The translations under genes were made by a program, and so were the position numbers. Positions 11,161 through 40,101 of a stretch of 40,101 nucleotides of DNA are shown here, one piece after another. Origin of the DNA: a virus; the IMG/VR virus record IMGVR_UViG_3300025029_000035, positions 1 to 40,101 of that record; one strand, written 5' to 3'. The notes under the pieces were generated by a model. It worked only from the letters and a program-made list of their open reading frames with translations, ran no database searches and was not told the origin of the DNA. Positions within the stretch are counted from its first letter, which is position 1. The number at the start of each line of letters is the position of its first letter.

Positions 11161-11495
11161 GCAAGGTCGAGATCAACAGCATGGATGTCGCGGTGGATAA
11201 AAAAGCCATTGGCCAAGCCTTCGTCACGCTGGCGGCTCCAATCATTGCCGCAAAAGCACTGGCTGATCGTTATGGCGAAGAGAAAGCTAAAACAATGCTG
11301 GGCTTGGAGCCAAAGGAAGACCTCGATAAGGCAGGCCAAGTGGTGCTAGGCACCTACAACGGCCTGGTATGCCGTTTAGTGATTGAGCCAGAGAGCGGCA
11401 GTTGGATGGGGGGCAGCCTTACCCACGAGCCAATTAAAGGCATCTTCATTCAAAACATGGAAGTGAACGGCAAGAAGCTAAAGGTCGGAGCATAG
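11157..11495 (+). CDS. Early phage protein of unknown function
   Basis: This is a 112-residue protein. The first half is helical (AIGQAFVTLAAPIIAAKALADRYGEEKAKTMLGLEP) and the second half beta-rich (VVLGTYNGLVCRLVIEPESGSWMGGSLTHEPIKGIFIQNMEVNGKKLKV). It closes the first run of overlapping early genes; a palindrome follows directly. I do not recognise the family. Confidence 0.65.
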   Translation: MSKVEINSMDVAVDKKAIGQAFVTLAAPIIAAKALADRYGEEKAKTMLGLEPKEDLDKAGQVVLGTYNGLVCRLVIEPESGSWMGGSLTHEPIKGIFIQNMEVNGKKLKVGA

Positions 11496-11499
11496 CGAA

Positions 11500-11517
11500 A
11501 CGCCCCACGTGGGGCGT
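11500..11517. terminator. Perfect GC-rich palindrome, possible attenuator
   Basis: ACGCCCCACGTGGGGCGT is an 18-base perfect palindrome five bases after a stop codon, in the only real gap (11496-11566) of the early operon before gemA. It is not followed by a run of T, so it may slow or partly end transcription, stabilise the upstream message, or be a protein site. Confidence 0.35.
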
Positions 11518-11566
11518 CTGCTGGGCGTGGTGGCCCGGCACTGATGAGCAGCCAATGAGGTGAACA

Positions 11567-11971
11567 ATGGATAAGTGGAAAGATATCAAAGAGCGCTTAA
11601 ACCACCTGCACGGTTCAGTAGAGCTGCTGGCGGATGGGCACACGCTGTCAATGATCAAGGTGCATGACGGAAAGAAGATCTTTGTCCGCGTATACGTAGA
11701 CGGCTGTGTGGACTTCAAATGGACAAAAACCGAGGACGGTAAGCCAGTGCATGCCCAAGGGCGATTCTGGCGGCCATTGAAACGGGCGGCATATCCAAAA
11801 AAAGCTTACCCGAGCTTGAAACGTATATATGGCAAGAAAGAAGCCGATCGAATGGTAACGCCTCGGGTGATCGGCGTTGTGCCGGATTTTGGCACCGAAG
11901 GCGCTGCGGTGGCTCACCTCAAGAAGCACTTCCCTGATCTTGTGATCAAGGCGGATGAGGTAGCGTCATGA
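11567..11971 (+). CDS. Phage protein of unknown function before gemA
   Basis: The 134-residue product is basic and has a beta-rich start (GSVELLADGHTLSMIKVHDGKKIFVRVYVDGCVDFKWTK) and a helical end (EGAAVAHLKKHFPDLVIKADEVAS). No family is recognised. AATGAGGTGAACA precedes the ATG, giving an adequate ribosome-binding site. The stop overlaps the gemA start, so the two are probably translated together. Confidence 0.65.
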   Translation: MDKWKDIKERLNHLHGSVELLADGHTLSMIKVHDGKKIFVRVYVDGCVDFKWTKTEDGKPVHAQGRFWRPLKRAAYPKKAYPSLKRIYGKKEADRMVTPRVIGVVPDFGTEGAAVAHLKKHFPDLVIKADEVAS

Positions 11972-38608: not shown

Positions 38609-39021
38609 TCGACGCAATCCTATTCGTATCCAGTATGCCCGCCTTGGTCACAGAGTTGGATGCGTCTCACCCAGCCATGCTTCAACGAAACGAAACCGGC
38701 GCAATCACAATACCCCCTGTCGTCACCGGCTTTGCACGAACCCCCGCCGCGATCCGTGATGACCGCGTGCTGGTCTATGCACGCCTAAACGAAACCGACG
38801 CAGCGCAATACCGCAGCATTCAGCAAATGGAAGTGCTCGCGGAAACGGAGTACACAGGCAAAGGCACGGCAGACCGGCTATACCAGATCGTCTTCGATGA
38901 CCCTGAAAAATTAGCGAAGTACAACAGCGTCCATCAACGCGTGCGCACCATCACCGACCCCGAGACCGGAGAAGAGCAGCAGATCAGGCAAGACAAATTC
39001 GGCATCTTAGCCGGAGCATAG
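38605..39021 (+). CDS. Fibre-associated small protein
   Basis: The 138-residue protein overlaps the fibre stop by ATGA with GGAGATAACCTC upstream. Its pattern (MIDAILFVSSMPALVTELDASHPAML...VTGFARTPAAIRDDRVLVYARLNETDAAQYRSIQQMEVLAETEYTGKGTADRLYQIVFDDPEKLAKYNSVHQRV...IRQDKFGILAG) matches no family I can name. It is translationally coupled to the fibre, and returns to the GC-rich phage codon use, so it is probably a conserved chaperone or tip protein. Confidence 0.65.
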   Translation: MIDAILFVSSMPALVTELDASHPAMLQRNETGAITIPPVVTGFARTPAAIRDDRVLVYARLNETDAAQYRSIQQMEVLAETEYTGKGTADRLYQIVFDDPEKLAKYNSVHQRVRTITDPETGEEQQIRQDKFGILAGA

Positions 39022-39023
39022 AA

Positions 39024-39126
39024 GGGAGTGACCACCGAAGGTGCGGGAACACCAGCGGTGGCCACCAACAAGCAGCACACACCTGCAAGTCGGCCAAGAC
39101 TCCCCTGCCTAGCTAGGCAAAGGCAG
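39024..39126 (+). ncRNA. Candidate structured RNA upstream of com
   Basis: Visible pairings form a closed multibranch structure. P1 is GGGAGT (39024-39029) with ACTCCC (39099-39104). P2 is CCACCG (39032-39037) with CGGTGG (39056-39061), enclosing P3 GGTG (39040-39043) with CACC (39050-39053), loop CGGGAA. P4 is GCAG (39072-39075) with CTGC (39083-39086). After P1 comes the palindrome TGCCTAGCTAGGCA (39106-39119), which competes with CTGCC/GGCAG (39105-39109 with 39122-39126). No reading frame covers 39022-39161. It could be a leader controlling com, or an independent phage RNA. Direct repeats ACGTTAGA follow at 39137-39152. Confidence 0.5.
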
Positions 39127-39161
39127 TCTAAGCCAAACGTTAGAACGTTAGAAGGCTTGAC

Positions 39162-39359
39162 ATGGTGTTAATAGAAATCCGTTGTAAGCAGTGCAATCGC
39201 AAGCTGGCCAACGTCAGCGACTACCAGTTCATAGAAATAAAGTGTCCGCGCTGCAGGCACCTAAACCAGCAGAGAGCCACGAGCTCCAAACCCCAACAGG
39301 AGATGCCTCGTGGCTACCCCAATCATTCCCTGGATGGGCGGCAAGCGCCGCCTAGCTGA
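39162..39359 (+). CDS. com: Com-like zinc-finger translational activator
   Basis: The 65-residue protein has the Com pattern: IRCKQCNRKLANVSDYQFIEIKCPRCRHLNQ, with two CxxC knuckles (Cys8, Cys11, Cys28, Cys31) that bind one zinc. In Mu, Com binds the com-mom message and opens an inhibitory stem-loop so that mom is translated. Here the overlapping downstream gene is an adenine methyltransferase instead. AGAAGG is the ribosome site. The gene ends 50 bases inside the methyltransferase frame, and its last 25 residues are likely shaped by that overlap. Confidence 0.88.
   Translation: MVLIEIRCKQCNRKLANVSDYQFIEIKCPRCRHLNQQRATSSKPQQEMPRGYPNHSLDGRQAPPS
39275..39315 (+). promoter_or_regulatory. Translation-inhibiting stem-loop over the methyltransferase start
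   Basis: AGCCACGAG (39275-39283) pairs perfectly with CTCGTGGCT (39307-39315), which contains the GTG start (39310-39312). Inside it, CTCC (39284-39287) pairs with GGAG (39299-39302), the ribosome-binding site. Both signals are thus buried in one stem with a 4-base bulge. This matches the role of the Mu mom inhibitory structure that Com opens. Confidence 0.75.
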
Positions 39360-40101
39360 CCGCATATTTCCGCTGATGCCGCCGCACCAGTGCTACGTAG
39401 AGCCCTTCGCAGGAGGGGCCGCGCTGTTCTTTCTGCGCCCATCGCCAGCCGATGTCGAGGTGCTTAACGACGTTAACGGCGACCTAGTGAACCTCTACCG
39501 TGTTGTCCAGAACCATCTAGAAGAGTTCGTCAGGCAGTTTAAGTGGGCGCTCTCCAGCCGCCAGGTGTTTGAGTGGCTCAAGATAACACGCCCAGAAACG
39601 CTCACTGATATACAGCGGGCCGCCCGCTTCTATTACCTCCAGCAGAATGCCTTTGGTGCCCGCATTGAAGGCCAAACGTTTGGCACTGCCACCACCACAC
39701 CACCAGGCTTGAACCTGCTGCGTTTAGAGGAGACGCTATCAGCGGCTCACCTGCGTTTATCGAGCACCTTTATAGAACACCTAAGCTGGCAGGACTGCAT
39801 TGAGCGATATGACCGCCCGCATACCCTCTTCTATATGGACCCTCCCTACTGGCAGACAGAAGGATATGGGGTACCCTTTGGCATAGAACAGTACGAGGAA
39901 ATGGCGTGCATGTTGGCCAAGCTCAAAGGCAAAGCCATCATCAGCCTCAACGACCACCCAGACATCCGCAGGATCTTCGCGGACTACCACATCGAAACCA
40001 CCGACATACGCTACACCGTCGGCGGCGGCAAAGGCTCAGACGCCATAGAGGTGCTGATCTTTAGCTGGGATGTGGATGCGGAACCAGCGGGTTTGTTTTA
40101 A
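39310..40101 (+). CDS. DNA adenine methyltransferase, D12 class (Dam-like)
   Basis: The 263-residue protein is complete and stops at the last base of the window. It has the N-terminal PWMGGKRRLADRI motif (7-19), the SAM-binding motif I YVEPFAGGAALFF (29-41), DVNGDLVNLYR, and catalytic motif IV DPPYW (177-181), all typical of D12-class N6-adenine methyltransferases. It probably modifies phage DNA to evade host restriction, taking the place of Mu mom. The GTG start overlaps com in another frame and is hidden in a stem-loop, so its synthesis should depend on Com. The recognition site cannot be told from sequence. Confidence 0.93.
   Translation: MATPIIPWMGGKRRLADRIFPLMPPHQCYVEPFAGGAALFFLRPSPADVEVLNDVNGDLVNLYRVVQNHLEEFVRQFKWALSSRQVFEWLKITRPETLTDIQRAARFYYLQQNAFGARIEGQTFGTATTTPPGLNLLRLEETLSAAHLRLSSTFIEHLSWQDCIERYDRPHTLFYMDPPYWQTEGYGVPFGIEQYEEMACMLAKLKGKAIISLNDHPDIRRIFADYHIETTDIRYTVGGGKGSDAIEVLIFSWDVDAEPAGLF

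Follow-up and report, generated by a model that had tools for sequence, protein, structure and literature searches.

The window analysed here, a stretch of 40,101 nucleotides from a viral record (IMG/VR IMGVR_UViG_3300025029_000035), is a Mu-like prophage with a transposase that contains Mu domains. A gap at positions 39022-39161 is bordered by an ORF of the tail region on one side and by com on the other. The genes next to the gap and the elements predicted within and around it are as follows, each with the evidence on which it was placed:

39162-39359, plus strand: com, Zn_ribbon_Com protein (PF10122); domain match
39310-40101, plus strand: dam, D12 class N6-adenine DNA methyltransferase (PF02086); domain match
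39150-39168, plus strand: com Shine-Dalgarno sequence AGAAGG, spacer GGCUUGAC and start codon (ATG 39162); sequence and fold
39079-39089, plus strand: segment that could pair with the com start when read-through proceeds rightwards; minimum free energy (MFE) fold of 39014-39180 (plus) and comparison of own with swapped leaders
39017-39119, minus strand: predicted small RNA of about 103 nt, ends approximate (5′ ~39119, 3′ ~39017); MFE fold and anchoring on promoter and tail in relatives
39106-39119, minus strand: H0, 5′ hairpin UGCC-UAGCUA-GGCA, a perfect DNA palindrome; palindrome counts across loci
39024-39104, minus strand: three-way junction closed by P1 (39099-39104 with 39024-39029); P1 covaries
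39064-39094, minus strand: P3 hairpin (39083-39094 with 39064-39075), similar in its 5′ arm to the spacer between ribosome-binding site (RBS) and start in the neighbouring operon
39030-39063, minus strand: P2 hairpin (39050-39063 with 39030-39043), apical GGUG-UUNNNG-CACC; sequence varies, structure is kept
39125-39130, minus strand: -10 box TAGACT of the small-RNA promoter; family-level TAnnnT box
39148-39153, minus strand: -35-like position TTCTAA; weak T signal at -35 spacing in 77 loci
39016-39023, minus strand: U-rich, terminator-like stretch after P1; T in ~60-75% of loci over about six positions

A preliminary description of the gap had pointed to a compact structured RNA, denser in complementary segments than a chance spacer, and all of its helices could be located: the closing stem GGGAGT/ACTCCC (39024-39029 with 39099-39104), a two-part hairpin at 39030-39063 with a 2x2 internal loop and, in the plus-strand reading, a CGGGAA loop, a GCAG/CTGC hairpin, and the palindrome TGCCTAGCTAGGCA at 39106-39119. 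Compared with shuffled sequence, the gap folds with z = -2.78 on the plus strand and z = -4.89 on the minus strand, which bears out the unusual density. The predicted minus-strand transcript 39119-39014 alone has z = -4.04, with none of 200 shuffles equally stable, and its MFE structure consists of exactly H0 and the three-way junction. The gap had also been said to hold no ORF; a 47-aa GTG frame at 39028-39171 (plus) does exist mechanically, but insertions and deletions in the homologues argue against its being a gene.

Strand and fold of the predicted RNA

A Com-guided search recovered contigs of 14 related IMG/VR phages that retain the element as far as com despite a different upstream gene. 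An alignment of 18 homologous gap sequences was then used to compare a minus-strand model with its mirrored plus-strand counterpart. On the plus strand nearly all non-Watson-Crick pairs are A·C, which are G·U on the minus strand (89 versus 2, with 36 of the 89 G·U cells stemming from two invariant columns), and among 46 diverse sequences G·U outnumbers A·C on the minus strand by 206 to 21. The minus-strand model has 90.6% of the cells paired, 29 extra pair types and a covariation of 0.184, versus 75.5%, 14 and 0.090 for the mirrored model, and conserved structure on the com-sense strand was accordingly not favoured. Because of the wobble asymmetry and the better pairing and covariation of the minus model, the functional strand is taken to be the minus strand, opposite to com. 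Judged by sequence comparison, the strand, the structure and the linkage to cargo genes described below are firmly established.

In the 46-member alignment, which was fitted to the model and hence leans towards the structure, P1 is 97.8% paired and both sides have changed in five of its six pairs, double-sided changes occur in 23 of 32 pairs overall, and the covariation is 0.366 versus 0.160 in shuffled alignments; structures slid along the same alignment collapse. Homologous gaps thus covary and retain the element, and the structured RNA of the preliminary description is real. The conserved unpaired bases are those of the junction, CUUnG (CUUGG), together with the U that opens the P2 loop (UUNNNG), and they are common to loci with different types of cargo. 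A purely local antisense role leaves their conservation unexplained.

At the H0 position 114 of 137 loci have a perfect palindrome in their DNA, 8 bp or longer, versus approximately 10-16% by chance. Hairpin formation accounts for part of these palindromes, not for the palindromic loop, which could possibly mediate kissing dimers or be bound by a dyad-recognizing protein. Across 151 oriented loci the palindromes just 5′ of P1, at the predicted RNA start, vary in sequence (CTCGCGCGAG, GTGCAC, GTCGAC, CCCGGG and others).

Transcription signals

A TAnnnT box is present about -26 from P1, upstream of H0, in 144 of 152 loci. When 77 less redundant loci were anchored on the box, an extended -10 element (TGnTAGnCT), a weak -35 signal and T-rich positions directly after P1 became apparent. 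The window's own -10 box is without the TG of the extended element, its U-tail is weak and becomes stronger in relatives, and a simple sigma-70 promoter scan of the window found no promoter at the small RNA. A conserved promoter at a fixed distance and a terminator-like 3′ end, as expected for an independent transcription unit, are therefore present at the level of the family and both weak in the window's copy. Taken together, the element probably represents a self-contained small RNA, bounded by promoter-like and terminator-like signals, rather than a leader of com.

In 16 of 139 loci, versus 0.4 expected, a LexA-type box (CTGT-N8-ACAG) lies between the -35 and -10 positions, always at -45 to -47; these loci are probably kin to one another, which leaves fewer than 16 independent events. 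Loci with the box include L202, L246, L288, L321, L322, L326, L355, L362, L387 and L402. In the Halomonas group the promoter spacer contains CTAACGTT as a direct repeat, with two copies in the window (39136-39149) and three in L056 (~2095-2150). The AACGTT direct repeats of the window sit within its -35/-10 spacer, and such repeats possibly represent an operator with a variable copy number.

The preliminary description had read the element on the plus strand, as a leader or riboswitch ahead of com. The plus strand does fold beyond chance, pairing between leader and start is favoured (see below), and in L102, a distant relative, com is preceded on this strand by a terminator-like hairpin, which prompted a riboswitch-like leader as a candidate that was then ruled out by the wobble asymmetry. 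Since this asymmetry and the covariation strongly favour the minus strand, and the promoter-like and terminator-like signals likewise point there, divergently from com, we consider a plus-strand leader very improbable. The accompanying idea of a switch between the palindrome and CTGCC/GGCAG was rejected, as the partner sits in the promoter: the pairing uses minus-strand promoter bases, and GGCAG (39122-39126), which falls at the -10 box of the minus strand and ahead of the predicted 5′ end, is probably absent from the small RNA. Equally improbable is a DNA element with no RNA function, such as a recombination or protein-binding site for cargo exchange. Its location at the border of the variable late genes and the cargo and the perfect, sequence-changing palindromes at H0 would suit such a role, but the strand-specific tolerance of G·U pairs and the promoter and terminator signals indicate transcription.

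The family and its cargo operons

Searches with two covariance models, R1 and R2, found more than 150 relatives in Pseudomonadota and viral contigs, with the viral contigs numbering at least well over 100. Members are present in 18 of 201 genomes from the family of Halomonas llamarensis (G001), in 8 of 369 genomes of its class and in 13 of 398 of its phylum, and the genome records of the closest relatives name Halomonas and Vreelandella as hosts. The RNA is also carried by the culturable Pseudomonas aeruginosa phages PAN70, UMP151 and Komp_PAO1_1. Scanning the window and the relatives against Rfam 15 at gathering cut-offs gave no family match to the RNA, c4 included, in line with the earlier impression that the RNA belongs to no known class, and permissive scans gave only chance matches far below the cut-off. 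Comparing the window with phage records at the DNA level returned nothing useful, the relatives having surfaced via the covariance model, and many pattern matches in sequence collections were discarded as chance. In a search of mostly open literature no description of such an RNA was found. It is therefore regarded as a new, previously uncatalogued family, for which the working mode set out below is a proposal.

Of the 152 loci, 146 have a gene for Com, Dam, Mom, an N4/N6 methyltransferase or, once, an RHS protein on the 5′ side of the RNA, all of them divergent, and the start of the cargo is usually 40-80 bases from P1. Three of the six loci without recognised divergent cargo are contig ends, and the cargo of L434 is homologous to that of L343 and L423, which brings the back-to-back total to 147 of 152. 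The same arrangement holds for loci that were not selected for cargo: all seven new loci of the class scan (L442-L448) and nine of ten from the phylum scan (L457-L465) fit, the tenth (L466) being a near-identical copy at a contig end. The most eroded matches of the Halomonadaceae scan (for instance L268-L270, L272 and L274) lie outside the pattern or at decayed sites.

The cargo comprises com-dam, dam alone, com-mom, com with another methyltransferase, and com with bacteriocin-like genes; 39 loci have Com with no match to the modification queries, and several of these carry B_lectin bacteriocin-like, Colicin_M-like or AAA/ABC proteins. Given these varied neighbours, the RNA follows cargo operons, chiefly those for DNA modification, and not com itself. 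The tie to com suggested in the preliminary description thus holds insofar as a Com homologue adjoins the element in the window, but relatives lie equally beside dam alone, mom and bacteriocin-like genes. Conversely, the RNA stands beside com in two of three above-cut-off matches of a PF10122 genome scan and is absent at the third, L454, which means that com can occur without it. As the RNA lies back-to-back with cargo genes in many phages, it probably controls the time at which they are switched on. The RNA could serve as a genomic marker for cargo (moron) loci, with leads to unrecognised cargo such as ABC/AAA-type and formyltransferase-like proteins.

Several loci illustrate the range of the cargo. 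In L276, L286, L306, L284, L292, L317, L330, L346, L350, L351, L354, L368 and L380 com precedes genes of the Colicin_M-like or B_lectin (lectin-like bacteriocin) kind, and control by Com may extend beyond DNA modification. The cargo protein in L343, L423 and L434 has an AAA/ABC-type ATPase part and follows com in two of the loci, while L434 is apparently without com. In L115, L146 and L185 the RNA is located beside a 1523-aa RHS-repeat protein with a TIR-domain protein downstream, without com or dam. In locus L451 (PQ287647.1, Pseudomonas phage Komp_PAO1_1, 776-2651) com precedes a function-unassigned gene of 1.1 kb and another that is annotated as phosphoribosylglycinamide formyltransferase; this may be a case of unrecognised DNA-modification cargo.

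Possible control of the divergent operon

Read in the same direction, the bases that separate the Shine-Dalgarno sequence from the start of the neighbouring operon recur in the 5′ arm of P3, in variants matched to the locus (GGCTTGCA, GGCTCAC(A/G), GTTCGCA, GAACGCA, TCGGAGG and others). Tiled sharing with own versus swapped start regions is strongest in this arm (0 of 5000 permutations, in statistics that ignore kinship), and the P3 loop and 3′ arm give a weaker signal of complementarity to the own start (3 of 5000). Some loci show no such coupling, the small RNA as a whole is no more complementary to its own RBS region than to swapped ones, and the G·U bias in mismatches between P3 and the RBS region was uninformative. 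The small RNA overlaps the coding start of neither com nor dam. In the plus-strand MFE fold of 39014-39180, the segment 39079-39089 pairs with the com start at ~39156-39168, in the region of the ribosome-binding site, and across the family leaders pair with their own starts above swapped ones (0.29 versus 0.23; 64 of 93 loci; Wilcoxon p 2.7e-6, ignoring kinship). Translational control of the divergent operon is favoured because of the P3/RBS similarity and this pairing of leaders with their own starts.

With moderate confidence, we therefore read the element as a minus-strand small RNA of about 103 nt, a member of a large unnamed family that accompanies cargo operons, which most likely regulates the operon's translation. 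Read-through from the late genes would yield a transcript with the antisense of the RNA gene and, within it, a segment able to close over the com or dam start, since the P3 arm repeats the RBS-to-start spacer. The small RNA, which is complementary to the leader and bears an RBS-like arm, would determine if the start is accessible, and both activation and repression of the operon are compatible with the scheme. The CUUGG junction and the UUNNNG loop belong to a constant scaffold to which a host factor probably binds, and in the LexA-box subset synthesis of the small RNA would rise on prophage induction. We infer transcription, operon regulation, host-factor binding and SOS induction of this subset from sequence patterns. 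More tentatively, the family may constitute a widespread, hitherto undescribed class of phage riboregulators (some of them SOS-linked) in which a divergent RNA with a copy of the RBS spacer and a constant three-way junction gates the translation of moron cargo for DNA modification or bacteriocins and is retargeted for each cargo by one hairpin arm; if such arm-swapping is true, it would provide a natural retargetable translation controller.

Two other minus-strand readings were weighed against translational control, and both appear unlikely, to a similar degree. The leftward promoter might act through cis-antisense or transcriptional interference, opposing late transcription and keeping the prophage cargo silent, with the structured RNA mainly a terminated by-product. 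The promoter does face the late genes, the RNA lies within the spacer crossed by read-through, and the mom promoter region of Mu has leftward transcription; however, interference has no need for a three-way junction, for conserved unpaired CUUGG and UUNNNG or for covariation in P3 and P2. Alternatively, the RNA could act in trans on the host, for instance on defence, restriction or stress genes, and be co-inherited with the cargo as part of a moron module instead of regulating its neighbour, in agreement with the conservation of unpaired sequence across cargo types, the SOS-type promoter of the subset and the linkage to anti-restriction and bacteriocin-like cargo. The near-constant divergent position relative to the cargo start and the locus-matched similarity between P3 and the RBS region point instead to the neighbouring operon.

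Control of phage DNA modification, with mom of Mu as the classic case, is understood through proteins, including Dam and OxyR. In Mu, mom is controlled by C, which acts at the late promoter, and by Com, which activates translation (PMC4461284). The Com of the window is homologous (PF10122) and adjoins a DNA-modification gene (PF02086), and relatives of the RNA lie beside true com-mom operons (L102 with PF25680, and PAN70), but also, in contrast to Mu, beside dam-only operons without com. Mu itself (AF083977 34500-36717, gin-com region) gave no match to the RNA. With a conserved small RNA at the sister operons, across phages of many hosts, modification control would gain a level based on RNA, a prospect that PAN70, UMP151 and Komp_PAO1_1 make immediately testable. 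Short phage RNAs that act on translation of a neighbouring gene are known in c4 of P1/P7 and sar of P22 (PMC12197685); the presumed action of the present RNA is similar, whereas it has no Rfam match, c4 included, is encoded divergently from its presumed target and occurs with diverse types of cargo. AgvB, a small RNA of an E. coli prophage, mimics the targets of a host small RNA (PMC12197685) and likewise carries a copy of an mRNA site, although the site copied in the putative mimicry here is the RBS spacer of a divergent phage operon.

Elsewhere in the window, a Type II hammerhead ribozyme (RF02276, 75.6 bits, cut-off 37) is found at 11493-11557 on the plus strand, just upstream of an ORF at 11567-11971, and a fragment of the Dihydrodipicolinate-synthase family (PF00701) at 1084-1659, also on the plus strand, is probably host DNA at the left border of the prophage.
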